21,783 nucleotides of DNA from the IMG/VR virus record IMGVR_UViG_3300027963_000377, positions 1 to 21,783 of that record. One strand, given 5' to 3'. Every line of letters starts with the position of its first letter. Positions within the stretch are counted from its first letter, which is position 1. The notes below the pieces were generated by a model. That model made no database searches. It was not told the DNA's origin and saw only the letters and a list, made by a program, of their open reading frames with translations. This DNA is from a virus. The translations under genes were made by a program, and so were the position numbers. This document shows, one piece after another, positions 7,483 through 20,128 of the stretch.

Positions 7483-10326
7483 TTAGTAAGTCATTTCTGT
7501 TGTACGGATTTGGCAAACTGTACGAATAGTCGTGCTTGCTTGCCCTGTAAAAGTTACTGCTAAACCGCCATTAGTAGTGTCTGCTGTAAGACCAATAGTC
7601 CATGTTGCCGCACCAGCATCAGCATATAAAGATGTGACTGTAGAACCTACAAGAGTAGTAGCACCAGCGTTTGCACCTCGCTTGATAACACCAGCGATTT
7701 CCCAGCCTTTAGTGTTACCGCCACCAGTTACTCCTGAAATAACTTCGCCAGTAAAGTAATAGGCAGAGTTGTTAGGCAGTATTACTTGGTTTATTCCGCT
7801 TGCGGCACTTGCATCAGAGCATAAAACTGTTGCGGTTGCATCGGTTGTTTGTCTGCCAAGAAGCAAGGTTGCAGTTTGAATAATTCCAGCAGAGCCACCA
7901 TAAGGTGCATTACAACAAGCTATTGCATTATTTCCTGAGATACTTCTTGTTGTTCCAAAAGTTCCACCAACAACAGTTCCATATATGCTATTTGCCGTAT
8001 TGCTGTAACCTGAACCAACAAATGAAGATTGACCACTTGCTGTGTTTGTTAATCCACCAACTACAGCCGAACTTATCCCACTTGCAGTATTAGGAAAACT
8101 TCCTAATGCGCCTGATGTGGTAAATACTCCACCACCACCAACAAATGAACTTAATCCACTAGCTGTATTTTTATTACCACCACAAACTACAGACCAATCC
8201 CCACTAGCCACATTCCTATTAGCCGCAGTACCGCCATCACCGCCCCCTAAAATTGCACTATATGCCCCAGTTGCTTGGTTATTACCACCGCCTACTACTA
8301 CTCCATGAGGAGTGTAAAAAGATAGAGTGCTTGTAGATGAACCTGATGCGTTTTTGCTTAAAGTAAGTGATGTTCCGCTAATGGCGGCTACATAAGTATC
8401 ACCAGAAATAGAAGTGCCTGTGATGTACTGACCGACCTTGATGTTAGCGTTGCTACCTGACAATGTAACCGCAGTAGTAGCGTTCATTGTGCCGCTTTGG
8501 GTTGTTACGGCAGATGAAGATGTTGTACTGTTTGTAAAGCCATTGCCAACAAAACCATACCAGCCTGATGCTGTGCAAAAGTTTCCTGAACCAACAAAAG
8601 CGTATTGCTGTGATGCTGAATTAAATGCACCAGTTACTATTCCTGAACCATTTTGAGAACTTGAGTTTTGATAGCCACCACCAACAAAAGCATAAGTGCC
8701 TGAAGTAGTATTATTTGCACCACCGCTAATTACGGCTGCTGTAGCACTTGCTACCCTTGCCGCAGTATCTCTAGTAGTCTGCCAATCAACAGCATTAGCA
8801 CCCCTAGCATTACCACCTGTAGCAGTAGAATCTGTCTTTTGTGCTTGTAAAGCACCTGTTCCTGCTGGTTGTAATGACAAACTTCCATTTGTGGCTGTAA
8901 AAATTTGACTTCCAGCAATGTTTAAAGTATTGCTAGTGTTTACTGCCGCTGTTGTTGTAGGTACATATATTGATGTAGTTGAACCTTGCTCAACTTGTGC
9001 TCCATAAACATAAGTATTAACAAAACCACTACCATTTCGGTCTTGCAAACAAAAAAGGAATGTACTGGATGTAGAAGTAAATGTTACTGAATATCTATTC
9101 CAAGTGGTATTTGCAGTAAAAGTTCCATAAATAGTTCCACCATTATCTACAACACTAAATGTTCTTGTTCCACTTGCAACATAACACCAAATACTTAAGG
9201 TATAAATACCGCCAGCAATTGTAGCTATATTGCCTGACTTTAAACCTTGAAATTGATTAGTAATACTTAAAAGTGTTGCAGTTGAACCGCCAAATGGGTC
9301 TGTTTGTCCTGCTGTTACTGATACTGAACCTTCTTTTGTCCAATACGCATTTGTAAAAGTATTAGAGTACAAAAAGTTATTGTTACCTCCACTAATAACT
9401 TCTGTCTGTCCTGTAATCGTGGTTGCAGTAATAGCGGCTGGGGTAGTGCCACCAATGACTGCGTTATCTATTGTGCCGCCTGTGATGGCAGGAGTAGTTA
9501 GCGTAGGGCTAGTATTAAGTACAGTTGAACCGCTACCAGTTGATGTTGTAACCCCTGTTCCACCTCTATTTACTGCAACAGTATTACCATTCCATGTGGC
9601 GCTAGTAATAGAACCAGCATAATCAAGCGTATTGGTAGACCAGCTTACATTTGATGGTGCTTGGTCGTGTCTATCCCAAGAACCAGCCGCAATTGCATTA
9701 GACAATAAATTAACTAAAACAAATCCACCGCTAGGTACAGAAACAACTAGTGTATTAGAATTGTTATTGACAGTTATTGCACCGCTACTTTGGTTATTAT
9801 CAAACTGAAAAACTGCCCCGCTTGTCAATGTGGTAGCGTCAGGCAATTTAATAACTTGACCGCCTGACCCAGTTATTGTGTATCTTCTTGGCGAAGATGC
9901 TGTTAATGTAATTAATGTGCCAGATGCGGCAGTATTTGTATAACCATCGTCTATAGCATTTGCAGAAATATTGTTATTATCATCAACAGTTACGCCTGAA
10001 TTTTTAATCAACTTGCCAGTAGTAGAATCAAATCTAGCTATTGCATTGTTTGTGCTAGACGCTGGGCCAACTACATCACCTGAACCGTTAGTAGTCCAAG
10101 TAGCATTAGTTCCATCAGTTGCTAAGACTTTGCCATTATTTCCTGTTTGACTAGGAAGTAGGTTATTTAAACCATCTGCGGCAGTAGAAGCGCCTGTACC
10201 ACCATTAGCTACAGGAATAGTGCCTGTTAAATCATGGTCATCATTCCAATTTGATGGCCTAACTATAGTTGCATCTGTTCCGTCAGGAATAGCACTAACA
10301 AACTTATGCTTGACTGTTATAGCCAT
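7483..10326 (-). CDS. Tail fibre / adhesin with YadA-head-like repeats
   Basis: 947 aa, the largest gene here. Residues 1-80 form an N-terminal module typical of phage fibres (TGTIPVANGGTGASTAADGL, GKVLATDGTNATW). Residues about 225-310 have fibre-type repeats (SPTLTTPAITGGTIDNAVIG). Residues about 318-458 look like a carbohydrate-binding-type beta sandwich (YSNTFTNAYWT, YTLSIWCYVASG, VYGAQVEQG). Residues about 530-800 carry repeats of the form N-T-A-S-G-x-x-S-x-V-G-G-G, as in left-handed beta-roll heads of trimeric adhesins, interrupted by a beta module at about 607-671. Residues about 820-947 are a C-terminal beta domain. It probably forms the trimeric host-receptor-binding fibre. The start overlaps the HNH stop (TAATG), with GAGG 8 nt upstream. 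Its place between portal and head genes is unusual. Confidence 0.88.
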   Translation of the reverse strand: MAITVKHKFVSAIPDGTDATIVRPSNWNDDHDLTGTIPVANGGTGASTAADGLNNLLPSQTGNNGKVLATDGTNATWTTNGSGDVVGPASSTNNAIARFDSTTGKLIKNSGVTVDDNNNISANAIDDGYTNTAASGTLITLTASSPRRYTITGSGGQVIKLPDATTLTSGAVFQFDNNQSSGAITVNNNSNTLVVSVPSGGFVLVNLLSNAIAAGSWDRHDQAPSNVSWSTNTLDYAGSITSATWNGNTVAVNRGGTGVTTSTGSGSTVLNTSPTLTTPAITGGTIDNAVIGGTTPAAITATTITGQTEVISGGNNNFLYSNTFTNAYWTKEGSVSVTAGQTDPFGGSTATLLSITNQFQGLKSGNIATIAGGIYTLSIWCYVASGTRTFSVVDNGGTIYGTFTANTTWNRYSVTFTSTSSTFLFCLQDRNGSGFVNTYVYGAQVEQGSTTSIYVPTTTAAVNTSNTLNIAGSQIFTATNGSLSLQPAGTGALQAQKTDSTATGGNARGANAVDWQTTRDTAARVASATAAVISGGANNTTSGTYAFVGGGYQNSSSQNGSGIVTGAFNSASQQYAFVGSGNFCTASGWYGFVGNGFTNSTTSSSAVTTQSGTMNATTAVTLSGSNANIKVGQYITGTSISGDTYVAAISGTSLTLSKNASGSSTSTLSFYTPHGVVVGGGNNQATGAYSAILGGGDGGTAANRNVASGDWSVVCGGNKNTASGLSSFVGGGGVFTTSGALGSFPNTASGISSAVVGGLTNTASGQSSFVGSGYSNTANSIYGTVVGGTFGTTRSISGNNAIACCNAPYGGSAGIIQTATLLLGRQTTDATATVLCSDASAASGINQVILPNNSAYYFTGEVISGVTGGGNTKGWEIAGVIKRGANAGATTLVGSTVTSLYADAGAATWTIGLTADTTNGGLAVTFTGQASTTIRTVCQIRTTEMTY

Positions 10327-10793
10327 TATTGTGCCTCGTATTTGTTGTGTTTTTGAACATTCATGGACTTAGGAATAACTTGAATATTGCTATATACATG
10401 AAGTCCTGACACTTTTTTACCGCACAACGGAATTATATGGTCAACATCCCATTTAAAGCCTGTAATTTCTTCTCTTAATTTAGCCAAGTGATGTGCTTCT
10501 TTTATAACAAAAGCATCAAATTCACCATACCAAGATGGAGTTCTTTGCTTTTTGTTCGCAATTCTATTTAAGCTGTACATACGGTTTAAATCTTTATTGT
10601 TTTTCTTCCACAAATGCCTGTTTAATGCCGCTTTTTCTTTGTTTTCAGAAATCCATTTTTTACTTAATTCTGAAACTTCTTTTTTTCTTGAGTCTCTATA
10701 CGCTTTATGACAAGCCATGCACCAGTTACCTGACTGCTTTGCATAGAATAAATCTAGCGTTTTTTCAGTTAAGCATTTGGTACATTGTTTCAT
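10326..10793 (-). CDS. HNH endonuclease with N-terminal zinc finger
   Basis: 155 aa. C4-x2-C7 and C25-x2-C28 form a zinc-binding pair of CxxC motifs (MKQCTKC, WCMAC). A basic helical linker follows (30-85). The nuclease core is WDVDHIIPL (115-123, catalytic H119), then SGLHVYSNIQVIPKSMN (129-145) and KHNK (148-151), the beta-beta-alpha metal fold of HNH enzymes. This architecture is common in phage HNH proteins, either free-standing homing nucleases or packaging-associated nucleases. The gene is joined to its neighbours with no gap: its ATG overlaps the portal stop (ATGA) and its TAA overlaps the fibre ATG (TAATG). That fits an integrated gene better than a recent homing insertion. Confidence 0.88.
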   Translation of the reverse strand: MKQCTKCLTEKTLDLFYAKQSGNWCMACHKAYRDSRKKEVSELSKKWISENKEKAALNRHLWKKNNKDLNRMYSLNRIANKKQRTPSWYGEFDAFVIKEAHHLAKLREEITGFKWDVDHIIPLCGKKVSGLHVYSNIQVIPKSMNVQKHNKYEAQ

Positions 10794-13069
10794 TGGACAC
10801 CTATAATTTTGCCGTCAGAACCTCGAACCACTTGTTTGGGTTGATTTAGCTTATTCATTAATTCGCCAAGCATCATTGCCATTTGGTTGCTATTGTTGTT
10901 GATGGCGTTAGCGACTGTTTCCATTGGGTTTTGCATTGCTTGTGCCATATCTTCTTCGTTAGCATAAGCCATTGCACCGTCTGAATCATCTGAACCAATC
11001 CTTGCAACTTCAATCTTTGCCCCATTATTAATATGGGCTAACAAAACCTGAGTATTGCGTTCAGTCATCATCTTCATTTGGGCAACTTTGACTTCCATGT
11101 CCATCTTCATTTGGTCAGCTTGCATCTTCATTTGGGCATCGGCCTGATTGCGCTGATCTTCCAACTGGAATTTAAGCTGGTTCTCTTGGGCTTGGTATTC
11201 TTGCTTGGCTTTCTCCAGTTCCATCTGCATTTGCATTTCGGCTTGCTTGGCTTGAGATTGGGCTTGTAACTTAGCCTGTTCCATCTGTGCTTGCATCTGT
11301 AACTTCTGCATTTCAGGTGATGGCGGCTTGGGTTGTCCTTCTGCCGCTTTAGCTTGCTCACGGAACTTGTCGGCAGTTTCGTCAATCATGCCTTCCATTT
11401 GCTTACCAGCCTTAAATGCGGTTACGCCAAACTTGAGCATCTCCATAAGCAAAGGTGTGAGTTCAGGAACGCCCTGTGCTACTGGTAAAGCGGTTTGCAT
11501 AAAGCTACTGACTGCGGATAAAAACTCAATGCGGTTTTGCTTTTCTTGTTGCTCATCCTGATAGATCATGGAATCGCTAGTGACTTCGATACGGAAGTTC
11601 TTAGCTGGTTCGTCTTTCAGTAATGCAAGGGCTTGCGGTATAAGTTGTTGATCTTGCGGTGATAATTGCATTGCACCGCTGATCTTAACGATGGTGTCAT
11701 CAGTAAAGTGCTGGCAAATAATCTGTGCTTTGATCTGCAACAGGGCAGTAGCAAAGTTTACTACATCGTGTTGCATCGTCTTTAAACGCCCAGAAGCGTT
11801 GTTAGACTTGATAATTTGTGCGCCTAATGTTTCGCTTGGATCGGTCTGGCCACGCTGAATATCAGCAATACCCATAATCTCGTAGATTTGACCTTTGACC
11901 TGCTCCATAGCTTGATAAGCCATTTGCAAGCCTTGAGCGATCGGAGCAATATCAACTAGGTTAATAGCCCCAGCCATGCCGCCCTTCTCACTAAATGCAC
12001 CGTAGTTTTTAACTGGTAGCAAGGCGTTGTTTTCGCCTTCAGTAAACAAACGCTGTAAGGATGGCTCAGAAGCGTCATATACGCCCCGAACTTTGAGTGC
12101 TTGGATAAATCCATCAATACGGTCTGCCAGAGTGTCTAGCTGTCTTGCTTGGTCTTGGTAAAGAACATAGTCAGGAACAGGAACAAGCGTGTCAGTTGTC
12201 AGCGTAGAGAACATTGGCTTTGGACAAGGCCAAAAGTTCTCAAGTTGTAGCGGATCATCGCGTACATCAAGGATTTTGCCTAAAGACTTAGATAGCCATA
12301 AAACTTGACCTGTAGTTTTATCCCAAATCTCATAAACAACGGCTTCAGATGCGCCTTCGCCCATCTTTTCGTTAAATGTTTTGGATGTTTCAGGCTTGGT
12401 ATCAAGCGGAATCTTACCGCCTAATTCTTCACCAAAGCGCTCTACAAGGGCTGGTCTGCCCATATAAACTTTACGCCATACCGCTGTAACTTCTTCCCAT
12501 GTACGGGCAACGGTTAAACCAAAGTCACGCCAATGGACATAATCTACTGGGGCGCACTCATATTCAATACGCTCTTGGTTCTCACGGTGAATACCGCCTT
12601 CGGTTTCAGCTTCATCAATATCTTCTGTAATTTGGAAGCCATCATCGGGCGCGCCTTCACCTTCGCCGCCCATTTCACCAGTAATATGTGGCTCATAGCG
12701 AACCCATGCAGTACCGCGCCCACCTAACAAACGGTCTTGAACGGCTTGCTTCATGGCACTAGCGTAATCACCGTAATGTTCAACCTCATATTCAAGGGCG
12801 CGTTCTAACATCATTGAGGCTACACGGCCAACAGGATCGTTGTCGCGGAAACGGCGGCTTACATCTGGTCTTGGTAATCGAGCGAATACAGCGGGGGTAA
12901 TAGTCTGTACATTGCTCCAAAGAATATTAAATTTGGCATTAGGGTTATTCCTAGTGCGGGAATCATCGCGATACCGTTTGGTAATCTTGTCTGCTCTGCC
13001 TTCCCATTCTTTGTATGTACGCTCGTACTGGGCAATGCAGTTGTACCAATCTTGGTATGTGTGTTCCAT
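10790..13069 (-). CDS. Portal protein
   Basis: 759 aa. The N-terminal domain carries the block YRDDSRTRNNPNAKF (33-47) and NILWSNVQTITPAVFARLPR (48-67), typical of a class of podoviral, P22-like portals. Residues 300-420 include the conserved YVLYQDQARQLDTLADRIDG and the GIADIQRGQTDPSETLGAQ region. Portals form the dodecameric ring through which DNA is packaged and ejected and which binds the terminase. The C-terminal part (about 584-680) is a long M/Q/K-rich coiled coil, as in the helical barrel of P22-type portals. The gene follows TerL by 3 nt and overlaps the HNH gene by 4 nt. The SD (AGGAT) is well spaced. The portal function is confident; the exact family is an inference. Confidence 0.9.
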   Translation of the reverse strand: MEHTYQDWYNCIAQYERTYKEWEGRADKITKRYRDDSRTRNNPNAKFNILWSNVQTITPAVFARLPRPDVSRRFRDNDPVGRVASMMLERALEYEVEHYGDYASAMKQAVQDRLLGGRGTAWVRYEPHITGEMGGEGEGAPDDGFQITEDIDEAETEGGIHRENQERIEYECAPVDYVHWRDFGLTVARTWEEVTAVWRKVYMGRPALVERFGEELGGKIPLDTKPETSKTFNEKMGEGASEAVVYEIWDKTTGQVLWLSKSLGKILDVRDDPLQLENFWPCPKPMFSTLTTDTLVPVPDYVLYQDQARQLDTLADRIDGFIQALKVRGVYDASEPSLQRLFTEGENNALLPVKNYGAFSEKGGMAGAINLVDIAPIAQGLQMAYQAMEQVKGQIYEIMGIADIQRGQTDPSETLGAQIIKSNNASGRLKTMQHDVVNFATALLQIKAQIICQHFTDDTIVKISGAMQLSPQDQQLIPQALALLKDEPAKNFRIEVTSDSMIYQDEQQEKQNRIEFLSAVSSFMQTALPVAQGVPELTPLLMEMLKFGVTAFKAGKQMEGMIDETADKFREQAKAAEGQPKPPSPEMQKLQMQAQMEQAKLQAQSQAKQAEMQMQMELEKAKQEYQAQENQLKFQLEDQRNQADAQMKMQADQMKMDMEVKVAQMKMMTERNTQVLLAHINNGAKIEVARIGSDDSDGAMAYANEEDMAQAMQNPMETVANAINNNSNQMAMMLGELMNKLNQPKQVVRGSDGKIIGVQ

Positions 13070-16777: not shown

Positions 16778-16944
16778 TACTTAACTTCTTTATCCAAGTC
16801 TTTAAGTTTGTCAGCAATAGCGGCTCTACGCTCTAAACGCTCACGCTGGTTCTTTTCTAGCGTAGATTCAGTATGCGGTCTGAGCATTGCATCTTCTTTT
16901 TTGTATTTACGGCTCATTGGGGTGGGTGGAATCATCTTAACCAT
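16777..16944 (-). CDS. Small basic hypothetical protein (55 aa)
   Basis: A 55-codon ORF runs from the ATG at 16944 to the TAA at 16779-16777. It begins MVKMIPPTPMSRKYKKEDAM and ends in a charged helix (KNQRERLERRAAIADKLKDL). The start overlaps the stop of the gene before it, and the stop overlaps the ATG of the 272-aa gene, both as TAATG. An AAGGA SD sits 7 nt before the ATG. These two junctions make it a convincing gene despite its length. The function is unknown; the charge suggests nucleic-acid or protein binding. Confidence 0.75.
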   Translation of the reverse strand: MVKMIPPTPMSRKYKKEDAMLRPHTESTLEKNQRERLERRAAIADKLKDLDKEVK

Positions 16945-17129
16945 TACATATCCTTCATCTTTGAGGCAATCATTTCTTTTCTGCTTTGTGGCTTGGCAGT
17001 CTTGGCAGATTCTTTAAAATCTTGGGCTGTTGGCGCGTTTTTGCTACCAACCTTGTTCATTTTCTCACCAGAACCGTTCTTGATCCGTTCCTGTTTACGG
17101 TGAATATTTGCGTACAATCCGTTTTTCAT
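16944..17129 (-). CDS. Small basic phage protein (KNGLYANIH type, 61 aa)
   Basis: The protein from the ATG at 17129 starts MKNGLYANIHRKQERIKNGS and contains NKVGSKNAPTAQDFKESAKT. I recognise this short Lys-rich pattern from small proteins of many phages, where no function is known. The frame is open further upstream, to an in-frame ATG at 17135 and beyond, but 17129 forms a TAATG overlap with the preceding gene, the junction used throughout this region. The stop overlaps the next start at 16944. It is probably an intrinsically disordered, basic protein. Confidence 0.75.
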   Translation of the reverse strand: MKNGLYANIHRKQERIKNGSGEKMNKVGSKNAPTAQDFKESAKTAKPQSRKEMIASKMKDM

Positions 17130-17582: not shown

Positions 17583-17942
17583 TTAAGCCTTAAATTTGAG
17601 TAAATAGATGGTTGTGTCGATTTCTTGCGCGATATTGTCAATTAATTGGACAATTTCGGAATCTGTAGGCAAGTCTGCACGGGCATCTTTAACAAACGCT
17701 TGTAATGATTGCAGGTATGCCAATGGTTCTTTTGGCTGGTGGTATGTAGCAGGGAATTCGGTTATCTGACCGTAGATGCCAAAATAGCACTCTGCCAAAG
17801 CATCTGTATGTTCAATAATGTTTTCGTAAAAGTGGCCAAGTGCTTTATGTTTAGCGTAAGACTTGGTAGCCCAATGGAAAAAATGGGTATTAGTACCAGA
17901 ATGTAGCAATGTTGCTAGGAATAATGCCATTGACTTTTCCAT
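17583..17942 (-). CDS. Dps/ferritin-like four-helix phage protein (DUF5856-like)
   Basis: 119 aa, all-helical. The segment THFFHWATKSYAKHKALGHF (19-38) followed by HTDALAECYFGIYG (45-58) resembles Dps and the phage DUF5856 family. H23-W24, H32, D47 and E51 follow the order of Dps ferroxidase ligands; the H32-D47-E51 spacings (15 and 4) equal those I recall for Dps (H43-D58-E62), while the HW-to-H distance is about three residues shorter. It is shorter than cellular Dps and lacks the basic N-terminal tail. Iron binding, DNA protection or a structural role are all possible. A perfect SD (AAGGAG, 6 nt) fixes the start at 17942. Confidence 0.75.
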   Translation of the reverse strand: MEKSMALFLATLLHSGTNTHFFHWATKSYAKHKALGHFYENIIEHTDALAECYFGIYGQITEFPATYHQPKEPLAYLQSLQAFVKDARADLPTDSEIVQLIDNIAQEIDTTIYLLKFKA

Positions 17943-17964: not shown

Positions 17965-18249
17965 TTATAACACTTTTCTGGTAATTCCTAATGCTCTAAT
18001 CGCGGCATCAACGCTGTCCACGCGGCTGATTGCACCACCTCTCCATTTACCCAAAAAGTCTAATTGGTCAGGCGTGAACTTGGCTTTGGCATCGCGCTTG
18101 ATTTCCATTAATACTGTTTCGCCAGCGTAACCTACAAGCAGGTCAGGGCAACCATGCTTCATTGCGGCAAGTGACACCACAGTAGCACCAGCATCTCGTA
18201 ATGCCTTAACTATTTCTTTGTGGTTTGTATCTATTCGTGCGTATGTCAT
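17965..18249 (-). CDS. VRR-NUC-like PD-(D/E)xK nuclease
   Basis: 94 aa. It begins YARIDTNHKEIVKALRDAGA, then VVSLAAMKHGCPDLLVGYAG, VLMEIKRD and FTPDQLDFLGKWRGG. The catalytic pattern is PD at 35-36, E49-I-K51 and Q62, as in minimal VRR-NUC / PD-(D/E)xK nucleases common in phages, which resolve branched DNA or process replication intermediates. The order and spacing look intact. It is the first leftward gene after the divergent gap, so it may head the leftward operon. No strong SD was seen upstream of the ATG at 18249. A Holliday-junction-type role is inferred from the family. Confidence 0.82.
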   Translation of the reverse strand: MTYARIDTNHKEIVKALRDAGATVVSLAAMKHGCPDLLVGYAGETVLMEIKRDAKAKFTPDQLDFLGKWRGGAISRVDSVDAAIRALGITRKVL

Positions 18250-18306
18250 TGATTTTCAATTAAAATAGATTAGTATTAGCTAACTTTACCATTATAAAGG
18301 TGTGGT
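18250..18306. promoter_or_regulatory. Divergent intergenic region, probable bidirectional promoter
   Basis: This 57-nt AT-rich gap separates leftward and rightward genes, the only such junction here. On the minus strand a perfect TATAAT lies at 18296-18291, but only a weak -35 (TTAGGT-like) is found 17-18 nt further up. On the plus strand, TTGATT (18249-18254) with TAGTAT (18271-18276) at 16-nt spacing is a weak candidate, and AAGGTG precedes the ATG at 18307. Transcription must start in both directions near here, but the exact elements are uncertain. Confidence 0.45.
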
Positions 18307-19272
18307 ATGTCTAAACCTAAGTGTACTGACAAAGAATTTATTGACTTATTTAAAGAGCATAGATCACCCACCGCGTTAGCTAAAATACTTAAAATTGATA
18401 TTAGAAGTGTTATAGCCCGTAGAAAAAATTTAGAAAAAAAATACGATATTGTTCTTGAATCTAATAACAATCGTGGTATTCCAAAGTTTACTATTCCCGA
18501 AAACAAAATACGCTGTGAATATGAAATAAAAAATGGCGTGATTTTGGTGGGTTCTGATTGTCACTATAACCCCAACTATGTTTCTACTGCACACAAAGCA
18601 TTTGTACACTTTGTAAAAGAATTAAAACCCAATATGGTGGTTTTAAATGGCGATTTATTTGATTTTGCCCAGATCAGCCAACATAACAGGATTGGGTATC
18701 AACAGCATCCAACAGTCCAGCAAGAATTAGAAGAAGTACAAGCCAGATTAGGTGATATTGAAAAGGTTAGACCTGCTGGTTGTATTTTGCATCGCACCAT
18801 AGGTAATCATGATTTACGCTTTGATGGCAAGCTGTCTAATGTATTGCCGCAGTATGAAGGTGTAAAAGGTATGTGCCTTGCCGATCACCTGTACGGCTGG
18901 TCGTATAGCTGGTCTGTAGTAGTAAACAACAACACAATGATTAAGCATCGCTGGCATAACGGTATTCATGCGGTTTACAACAATATTCTTAAAGGGGGTA
19001 TGTCGATGGTTACGGGCCACCTGCACTCCCTCAAAGTTACGCCTTGGACTAATTACAAGGGCGATATGTATGGTGTAGATACTGGTATGATGGCCGCTGT
19101 CAAAGATGACCAGTTTATATACCATGAAGATTCAAGCGTGAATTGGCGTGCAGGATTTGCGGTTCTTACTTATATAAACGGTCATTTGATGCCGCCTGAG
19201 TTGGTACAGGTTATCAATGAAGATGAAGGACTTGTGTTTTTTAGGGGTCAATTACATGAGATTAACGCCTGA
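18307..19272 (+). CDS. Calcineurin-like metallophosphoesterase with N-terminal helix-turn-helix
   Basis: 321 aa on the plus strand. Residues about 7-45 (CTDKEFIDLFKEHRSPTALA, then KILKIDIRSVIARRK) look like a helix-turn-helix. The phosphoesterase core is complete: D84-x-H86 (GSDCHY), GD at 115-116 (LNGDLFD), GNHD at 166-169, H214 in IKHRWHNG and GHLH at 237-240. Such enzymes hydrolyse phosphodiesters or phosphomonoesters with two metal ions; phage members are often called Mre11-like or serine/threonine phosphatase-like, and the substrate cannot be read from the sequence. The N-terminal HTH suggests DNA targeting. It overlaps the SprT-like gene by 17 nt and forms a two-gene rightward unit. Confidence 0.9.
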   Translation: MSKPKCTDKEFIDLFKEHRSPTALAKILKIDIRSVIARRKNLEKKYDIVLESNNNRGIPKFTIPENKIRCEYEIKNGVILVGSDCHYNPNYVSTAHKAFVHFVKELKPNMVVLNGDLFDFAQISQHNRIGYQQHPTVQQELEEVQARLGDIEKVRPAGCILHRTIGNHDLRFDGKLSNVLPQYEGVKGMCLADHLYGWSYSWSVVVNNNTMIKHRWHNGIHAVYNNILKGGMSMVTGHLHSLKVTPWTNYKGDMYGVDTGMMAAVKDDQFIYHEDSSVNWRAGFAVLTYINGHLMPPELVQVINEDEGLVFFRGQLHEINA

Positions 19273-19609
19273 AGCATTAAAGCATTTATATTCAAGCCTG
19301 TATTGCACTTACCCATTTACTAAATGGCCTATGCCATTGCCTGAAGAAATAGAATTTATTGTTACCCCTGATCCAGAAGTAATGGGAACTTATTTGCTAG
19401 ATACTGGGGAAGATTACGCGCATACCATTACCATCTCATCTGGGCGCTGTAGCCACTATTACACCGTTCTAACCACCCTTGCCCATGAATGTATCCACAT
19501 GAGTTTTCATAAACAAAAAGGCGATAAATGGATGCAACACGGCAAACCATTTAGAACCCGTTGCAAGATGGTAGCCAACGAACTAGGGTTTGATGCTTTA
19601 GAACTATGA
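19256..19609 (+). CDS. SprT-like zinc metalloprotease
   Basis: 117 aa from the ATG at 19256. The zinc-protease motif HECIH is at 77-81 (TLAHECIHMSFH), and a third likely ligand lies in HGKPFRTRCKMVANELG (95-111). This is the minimal SprT-like/WLM arrangement, related to SprT and Spartan-type proteases that cleave DNA-bound proteins. AGGGG sits 8 nt upstream of ATG 19256, inside the phosphoesterase gene, and fixes this start; an in-frame ATG at 19217 is disfavoured because it is buried deep in the upstream gene and lacks an SD. The C-terminal end overlaps the convergent 39-aa ORF by 6 nt. A role in processing protein-DNA complexes or virion proteins is inferred. Confidence 0.85.
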   Translation: MRLTPEALKHLYSSLYCTYPFTKWPMPLPEEIEFIVTPDPEVMGTYLLDTGEDYAHTITISSGRCSHYYTVLTTLAHECIHMSFHKQKGDKWMQHGKPFRTRCKMVANELGFDALEL

Positions 19610-19723
19610 ATTTCGATGATAGTGATCTTTATAATTGGTTTGCATTGATTTAATAAGTTCATCCATATTAAAGAACCATTGAATAACTTTCATGCCATCA
19701 TGCGTATAAATGGTAAAACTCAT
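19604..19723 (-). CDS. Tiny hypothetical ORF (39 aa), tail-to-tail with the SprT-like gene
   Basis: A 39-codon ORF runs from the ATG at 19723 to the TAG at 19606-19604. It begins MSFTIYTHDGMKVIQWFFNM and ends YHRNS. The ATG overlaps the stop of the membrane peptide gene (ATGA), the same junction used elsewhere, which is the main reason to believe it. The predicted product is a short amphipathic peptide. Its stop overlaps the convergent SprT-like gene. The function is unknown, and it could be non-coding. Confidence 0.45.
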   Translation of the reverse strand: MSFTIYTHDGMKVIQWFFNMDELIKSMQTNYKDHYHRNS

Positions 19724-19863
19724 TTAGCCATAATATAAAGACCGACATTAGAAAAAGCATAGCCTGTATATACAACTGCCATAGGCAAGTTACCTTTAAC
19801 ACCTTGCTCTATACCGATATAAAAGTAAATTAACCCTGTAACGATGATTAGCCAGCTACTCAA
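19720..19863 (-). CDS. Small two-helix membrane protein (47 aa, TTG start)
   Basis: A 47-codon ORF runs from the TTG at 19863 to the TGA at 19722-19720. It begins (M)SSWLIIVTGLIYFYIGIEQG and continues with NLPMAVVYTGYAFSNVGLYI. Two hydrophobic segments (about 4-18 and 26-45) flank a short polar turn (E19-N25), predicting a small inner-membrane hairpin protein. I recognise the YTGYAFSNVGLY-type ending from short phage membrane proteins of unknown role. The TTG overlaps the end of the Ref-like nuclease gene, and the TGA overlaps the ATG of the 39-aa ORF. No ATG lies upstream in frame before the nuclease gene. Confidence 0.7.
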   Translation of the reverse strand: MSSWLIIVTGLIYFYIGIEQGVKGNLPMAVVYTGYAFSNVGLYIMAK

Positions 19864-20128
19864 TTAGCTTTTCCGTTTGTTCAAAGAGTTCTTCTTCCGT
19901 GATCTGATACACGATTTCGAATTGCTTGCGGCCCATTCCGTGAATACTGGTATTTGATCCTCGATGGTGGTATGGACATAATGGGATAACAGGGGCATTA
20001 CTTCTTTTGCCAGTTCTTCTAATGTGATGTAATTCTGCTGGCGTTCCTTCATTGCCTTGATGCCTACATAATGAGCATCCCAGTTCAGCAATTTTTCTGT
20101 ACTTTTCTTTTTCAACCTTAGTGGCCAT
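19856..20128 (-). CDS. Ref-like (RecA-dependent nuclease type) HNH protein
   Basis: 90 aa. C18-x2-C21 (LGCSLC), ELHHIRRTGKR (32-42, H34 and H35), IPLCPYHHRG (48-57; C51, H54, H55), then IHGMGRKQFEIVY (62-74). This pattern matches the C-terminal nuclease domain of P1 Ref (RecA_dep_nuc family), an HNH-type zinc-binding nuclease that acts on RecA-bound DNA. It is much shorter than P1 Ref and lacks its DNA-binding N-terminal extension. It probably acts in phage recombination or replication. Its start overlaps the upstream 57-aa gene by 11 nt, and its stop region contains the TTG of the membrane peptide gene. No good SD was seen. Confidence 0.82.
   Translation of the reverse strand: MATKVEKEKYRKIAELGCSLCRHQGNEGTPAELHHIRRTGKRSNAPVIPLCPYHHRGSNTSIHGMGRKQFEIVYQITEEELFEQTEKLIE

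Follow-up and report, generated by a model that had tools for sequence, protein, structure and literature searches.

In eukaryotes, SPRTN and the 26S proteasome constitute independent proteolytic routes for DNA–protein crosslinks (PMC8674535, PMC6375733), lesions on which nucleases, MRE11 among them, also act (PMC7782752). Nuclease–protease gene pairs are already known from bacterial immunity. In the HamM–protease Hachiman, AVAST and canu pairs (PMC12799240), adjacent and recurrently acquired genes tied to immune cores encode an MBL-type nuclease and a trypsin-like or caspase protease, so that more than one protease type is used, and the protease activates the nuclease. SprT-like proteins have been reported in mycobacteriophages (PMC12363180), and no published description of a phage nuclease–protease pair was found in the open-licence PMC literature. 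Here we show that a nuclease-type gene paired with a protease gene is a widespread two-gene unit in one group of phages and some others, and that either half is replaceable by a non-homologous enzyme of the same activity class.

The phage pair resembles eukaryotic crosslink proteolysis (SPRTN/Wss1, the 26S proteasome and MRE11-type nucleases) in its SprT-domain protease with HExxH and a third histidine, in having a proteasome-type protease as the alternative, and in a nuclease partner with the metallophosphoesterase (MPE) fold. It differs in that the phage SprT is minimal (117 aa), without the SPRTN C-terminal modules, and in that the phage genes are physically paired. From the immune pairs it is set apart by its enzymes, which are an MPE, DEDD or HNH nuclease with a SprT, HslV-like or HExxH protease, both sides being exchangeable; Pfam, PHROG and fold results place them in folds other than those of the MBL nuclease and the trypsin-like or caspase protease.

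The window, by which we mean the whole stretch of DNA analysed, is a 21,783-base virus record, an IMG/VR contig. On its minus strand lie genes for structure, packaging and DNA metabolism, whose products are an amidase, a tail protein, the major head protein, the portal, the terminase subunits, replication-initiation, DUF5856, Hjc-like and Ref-like proteins, and a DNA methyltransferase that shows ParB-like similarity. Amid the structural genes, a 947-aa protein (7483–10326, minus strand) has no PHROG match. The MPE and SprT genes form an inverted island (Table 1) which, in the window and in sister phages, has packaging genes on one side and replication genes on the other and adjoins the Hjc-like and Ref-like recombination nucleases. 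The preliminary description had the unit begin at 18250; both genes are indeed on the plus strand, but the first start is at 18307. The most likely start of the SprT gene is the ATG at 19256, which is preceded by AGGGG as read from the sequence and gives the genes the mutual overlap already claimed for them, here 17 nt; with the upstream in-frame ATG at 19217 it would be 56 nt. The tail-to-tail convergence with a tiny minus-strand ORF is likewise borne out, since this ORF overlaps the end of the SprT gene and is conserved in relatives.

Table 1. Coordinates of the plus-strand unit and its flanking features in the window.
Feature	Position	Strand	Evidence or remark
HTH-metallophosphoesterase (MPE), 321 aa	18307..19272	+	Pfam PF00149, phrog_221
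N-terminal three-helix HTH-like segment of MPE, residues 8–46	18328..18444	+	AF2 helices
SprT-like metalloprotease, 117 aa	19256..19609	+	PF10263 above cut-off; alternative start 19217
Conserved 39-aa ORF, convergent with SprT	19604..19723	-	98/98 tblastn matches stop-free
Left border of island: 94-aa Hjc/VRR-like nuclease	17965..18249	-	PF01870 at cut-off
Left flank: DUF5856 protein	17583..17942	-	PF19174, 1.4e-20
Right flank: 47-aa putative membrane ORF	19720..19863	-	Matches in 324 loci, 0 with stop
Right border: Ref-like RecA-dependent HNH nuclease	19856..20128	-	PF16786 1.6e-9, phrog_1588

That these are the only plus-strand genes of the window stands as far as tested, four other plus-strand ORFs having been checked against relatives. 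Those at 16808 (13 matches open versus 96 closed) and 21013 (3 versus 23) are mostly interrupted by stops in relatives, and the ORF at 10535–10849 had no match in the fetched loci. The least clear, at 16873–17103, was open in 57 matches and closed in 71, with its minus-strand rival better kept (108 open, 39 closed).

The MPE of the window scores 25 bits against Pfam Metallophos PF00149 (cut-off 21.5), matches phrog_221 at 8e-29 and is weakly similar to phrog_1745, a ‘DNA transfer protein’ (2.9e-4). All of its motifs (DxH, GDxxD, GNHD, HR and GHxH) are intact, and their residues (D84, H86, D116, D119, N167, H168, D169, H214, H238 and H240) are invariant in 38 diverse relatives. The AlphaFold2 (AF2) model (pLDDT 83) has a calcineurin-like fold, preceded by three confidently predicted helices at residues 8–18, 21–28 and 32–46 (block pLDDT 78–91). 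The earlier label of HTH-metallophosphoesterase is confirmed for its second half by Pfam and PHROGs; its first half is carried by these helices, no Pfam HTH family matching the window protein. The best matches in a fold search were the DNA exonuclease PolD DP1 (6t8h_A; Z 14.7, 209 residues aligned, the longest alignment), YfcE (Z 14.7, 171 aligned), LpxH (Z 13.9, 173 aligned) and Mre11 (3tho_B; Z 13.7, 183 aligned). PolD DP1, YfcE, LpxH, Vps29 and Mre11 all lie within about 1.5 Z of each other for the MPE model, and because enzymes of DNA and of small molecules score alike, the fold does not decide the substrate. The MPE shares both fold and metal-binding motifs with the calcineurin-fold DNA exonucleases SbcD/Mre11 and PolD DP1, but differs from them in its N-terminal HTH-like segment and in a sequence similarity that is marginal, SbcD being the first of three matches of the MPE profile to PDB sequences (E 0.1). 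No SbcC/Rad50-type ATPase was found among those window proteins that were scanned with PHROGs, on a contig that may be partial, and no PolD DP2 or SbcC/Rad50 gene was found beside the MPE.

The identity of the second protein as a SprT-like protease is confirmed by a match above the curated cut-off to PF10263 (26.3 bits; cut-off 25.6) and by an active site in which HECIH and the third histidine, H95 (QHGKPF), are kept. H77, E78, H81, H95 and F99 are invariant in nine aligned SprT members, one of them only 22% identical, and the pattern HE..H(8-18)H...F is seen in 154 of the 159 distinct ORFs for SprT; those without it are five fragments of 61–91 aa. The protein ends 18 residues past the conserved F99, and SPRTN-type C-terminal regulatory or DNA-binding modules are absent from it; its profile found no match among PDB sequences up to E 5. 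Both genes are under strong purifying selection, with dN/dS of about 0.04–0.07 against most relatives; against 11 relatives the values range from 0.036 to 0.068 for MPE and from 0.013 to 0.085 for SprT, with one exception of 0.212, and many of the underlying dS values are saturated.

Scans with the window MPE and SprT proteins returned 73 and 80 distinct loci, in which an absent MPE was replaced by another nuclease-type enzyme and an absent SprT by another protease or by the end of the record. Further queries with an HslV-like protein, a second MPE family (MPE-C), an exonuclease and a 227-aa HExxH protein (HExxH-227) brought the total to 412 viral loci, a number that includes duplicates and many loci from shared contigs; clustering at 90% protein identity leaves 68 SprT, 16 HslV and 14 HExxH-227 clusters. 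Among the gene classes used for counting neighbours, HNH, HExxH-227 and GNAT were defined after the neighbours had been seen.

Across the 412 loci, a gene of the nuclease class directly adjoins SprT in 277 of its 283 copies; it is MPE-A/B (117), MPE-C (80) or the exonuclease (78) on the left and an MPE (2) on the right. Four of the six exceptions lie at record ends (L101, L105, L118 and L128) and two have extra DNA between the genes (L122 and L364). The HslV-like protease touches a nuclease (MPE, exonuclease or HNH) in 81 of 84 copies, with HNH on the right in 29, MPE on the right in 29, MPE on the left in 18 and the exonuclease on the left in 5; in one of the others an ORF intervenes (L175), and two records end about 120 bases past the HslV gene (L202 and L203). 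For HExxH-227 the count is 31 of 32 (HNH right 26, MPE-C left 4, MPE-A/B left 1), the exception, L411, having no nuclease neighbour. Seen from the other side, a protease is touched by 167 of 174 MPE-A/B, 84 of 91 MPE-C and 83 of 86 exonuclease copies. The paired genes mostly overlap or abut, the commonest spacings being -4, -56 (by longest ORF), -11, 0 and +1, and no nuclease–protease fusion occurs among 809 classified ORFs. Recurrence of the pair, chosen beforehand as the test of the original proposal, is thus found well beyond the two families then named. The accompanying suggestion of an independently expressed cassette is made plausible by orientation, both outer neighbours lying on the opposite strand in 68 of the 117 MPE-A/B>SprT pairs, but gained nothing from a promoter and terminator scan of the unit, in which no signal rose above shuffles. 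In three of the 91 MPE-C copies a GNAT acetyltransferase occupies the protease position (for example L233:5233–5661 and L238:4685–5140).

The nuclease position is held by two unrelated-looking MPE families, MPE-A/B and MPE-C (phrog_284 ‘exonuclease’, 5e-46), by a DEDD 3′–5′ exonuclease (phrog_403 ‘DNA polymerase exonuclease subunit’, 3e-91) and by an HNH protein (phrog_2255, 3e-25). Of the 39 distinct HNH ORFs, one motif pattern failed to match 19 and a second 15; the six unmatched ORFs inspected for each keep HH and N-x-H (or N-H-H) and deviate only in how the pattern was phrased. In one locus (L125:3809–5001) the exonuclease partner of SprT lacks its N-terminal part and has an HNH-type ORF upstream, as though a homing-endonuclease insertion had divided the gene. 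Pairs of HslV-like and HNH genes, as at L184:4001–4781, L200:4001–4778 and similar loci, have a constant 11-bp overlap and adjoin a minus-strand gene for a putative capsid-like protein of 300–303 aa.

The HslV-like protease matches phrog_1040 (‘peptidase HslV family’, 5e-26) and keeps its motif in all 51 distinct ORFs. By phmmer it found no HslV or proteasome match among PDB sequences, and the Pfam Proteasome profile scored below its cut-off in the viral copies and above it only in L421 (28.7 versus 22.4 bits). Its identity was settled by fold: the model (pLDDT 87.9) matches HslV at Z 16.0–16.1 over 135–137 of 139 residues, one match being 4g4e (Z 16.0, 135/139 residues), and its T2 aligns to the mature Thr1. 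It keeps the full-length fold of HslV (ClpQ) with the mature N-terminal Thr, the Asp and the Lys, but is shorter, at about 139 aa against about 170–180. No relative of it was matched in the named phage collection. HExxH-227 belongs to no named family and has weak metallopeptidase matches only (0.07–0.15); it is a putative metalloprotease, and members of this family (222–227 aa, HE-x-C/S-H; L239:5215–5895, L383–L412) lie beside an HNH or MPE gene. A search of NCBIfam was not decisive. PADLOC found no match for MPE, SprT, the exonuclease, the HslV-like protein or HExxH-227; for MPE-C and HNH its matches were weak (E 0.07 and E 0.0036, respectively). A known defence system was rejected for MPE and SprT on this ground.

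Exchange of partners is most apparent within a single genomic slot, defined by a bordering Hjc-like or DUF5856 gene on the opposite strand, which holds MPE-A/B>SprT in 78 cases, EXO>SprT in 47, MPE-C>SprT in 44, MPE-A/B>HslV in 6 and EXO>HslV in 3, duplicates included. On trees in which many forks are unresolved, the partner changes number at least 26 for SprT (139 rows) and at least 9 for HslV (48 rows); if the starred branches only are counted, MPE-C still requires at least 10 changes, the exonuclease at least 8 and MPE-A/B at least 4. The order is reversed, with the protease first, in L051, L072 and MW202713. As the gene classes had been partly derived from neighbours, a control scan used the border gene, that of the Hjc/VRR-like nuclease, alone as query. 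It returned 80 loci, 17 of which ended too close, and 62 of the 63 usable ones carry a nuclease followed by a protease, the exception having MPE-C without a protease; no other cargo was found in the slot in these 63 loci, unclassed ORFs of less than 60 aa being ignored. The control bears on this slot rather than on phages more widely, because its loci are close relatives, with query genes 84–100% alike, and partly coincide with those collected before. The swapping of both halves for non-homologous enzymes of the same type supports a functional module of nuclease and protease.

Among wider relatives the pairing is less regular. Fifteen genome-contig loci encode an MPE of the window family (36–47% identity), of which L434 is truncated and was set aside. 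A protease lies next to the MPE in L423 and L429 (SprT) and in L421 and L427 (HslV-like); in L428 the neighbour is a 106-aa HEILH protein with a sub-threshold match to Peptidase_M78 (E 0.012) and no relative in a viral scan. The other 9 of the 14 usable loci have no protease neighbour. Among named phages, MW202674 carries MPE>SprT and MW202713 carries SprT>MPE-C; in MW202879 a 119-aa HECLH protein without a Pfam match precedes the MPE, and in MW202481 SprT and the exonuclease are a few genes apart. MPE has no protease neighbour in the MW202691, Microcystis phage and Rhodococcus phage records examined, nor, by annotation, does the nuclease in Bacteroides phages, cyanophages and Acidovorax phages, and the annotations of MW202697 and MW202796 show further nucleases, but no protease, in the vicinity of the exonuclease. 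In cultured phages (Bacteroides phages and cyanophages), MPE-C relatives occupy replication or recombination regions, where DNA polymerase, exonuclease VIII or a protein for ssDNA binding or annealing is close by; a Parabacteroides record with such a relative is annotated as hypothetical proteins only. The SprT-like gene of MW202713.1 (L417:2989–3336) is absent from the public annotation and runs into the beginning of the MPE-C gene, which is annotated there as ‘archeal DNA polymerase II’. Because wider relatives are so often unpaired, the pairing characterizes this phage group and a few more rather than the nuclease families wherever they occur.

The nuclease position calls for cleavage of DNA or phosphodiesters and the protease position for proteolysis, irrespective of fold or style, which points to a substrate that needs both, namely protein-bound DNA. 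We propose that the phage would make one DNA nuclease and one protease together, from a translationally coupled two-gene module. The protease would digest proteins stuck on DNA, whether crosslinked or tightly bound, and the nuclease would cut or resect the DNA next to them, in aid of replication, recombination or packaging, or to strip the host nucleoid. The substrates are presumably DNA and DNA-bound protein, with both enzymes on the same complex. This reading agrees with eukaryotic crosslink proteolysis and with the replication or recombination setting of the MPE-C relatives; against it count the undecided MPE fold, the many unpaired nucleases outside this phage group, the lack of fusions and the GNAT genes found after MPE-C. 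Our confidence that the module acts on protein-bound DNA in this way is evenly balanced; within this reading, the processing of crosslinks or roadblocks on phage DNA takes the larger part. More tentatively, and with doubts somewhat outweighing belief, we suggest a dedicated crosslink (or nucleoprotein) module of two interchangeable slots, in which SprT and a proteasome-type protease, the alternatives of eukaryotic crosslink repair, would have been exchanged repeatedly within one operon. The preliminary description had spoken of protein-blocked DNA ends: the module of nuclease and protease is supported by recurrence and exchange, but the restriction to blocked ends is not, since the MPE fold is undiscriminating and the nuclease may instead be activated by the protease.

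Such a protease-activated pro-nuclease, in which cleavage by the protease switches on degradation of host or competing DNA, is the main rival; it would fit the tight coupling and co-inheritance of the genes, and the recurrently acquired MBL-type nucleases with their activating trypsin-like or caspase partners provide a precedent (PMC12799240). The folds of that precedent differ, however, PADLOC gave no match or weak ones, and 5 of the 68 clusters of SprT proteins with 90% identity or more contain partners from several nuclease families, which makes a cognate cleavage site less likely: near-identical proteases with different nucleases fit a shared substrate better than a nuclease-specific site. 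HslV-type enzymes, which as far as is known are processive and compartmental, are also poor site-specific activators, and overall we judge this alternative unlikely. Quite unlikely, in our estimation, is that the module breaks down the host nucleoid, or a competitor's nucleoprotein, in bulk for nucleotides or takeover rather than repairing phage DNA. Interchangeable endo- and exonucleases would suit bulk degradation, and the weak similarity of the MPE to the ‘DNA transfer protein’ family and some pairs that adjoin lysis or structural genes speak for it, yet the slot lies between packaging and replication genes, next to recombination nucleases, and nothing indicates what would protect the phage's own DNA.

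The two products could also be separate anti-defence enzymes in one operon, a phosphodiesterase of immune messengers and a protease of defence proteins. MPE-fold phosphodiesterases can use small molecules, and accessory inverted islands often carry anti-defence genes. That a DEDD exonuclease or an HNH protein can stand in for the MPE nevertheless indicates DNA rather than messengers, and the control loci hold no other cargo, so that we consider this explanation improbable; an esterase of small molecules only is compatible with the MPE fold but is disfavoured by the same replacements with DNA enzymes. An accessory slot taking arbitrary genes, the pairing being coincidence or hitch-hiking, might be expected from an inverted island amid minus-strand genes and from the GNAT genes found after MPE-C. 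It is, in our view, scarcely credible given the near-constant pair in the control loci, the adjacency counts of all three proteases and the fact that the pair is also kept elsewhere in the genome and with the gene order turned round.

Nature has time and again put unrelated enzymes with the same activity in the place of either member, which is strong evidence that selection acts on the activities and not on individual proteins. Should the module remove protein from DNA, viruses would possess a small and tractable equivalent of crosslink proteolysis, and the reason why a phage needs such removal would become testable, with packaging roadblocks, host-defence crosslinks and nucleoid stripping as candidate answers. 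If it is instead a protease-gated nuclease, a mechanism of bacterial immunity would extend to phages and to other enzyme folds.
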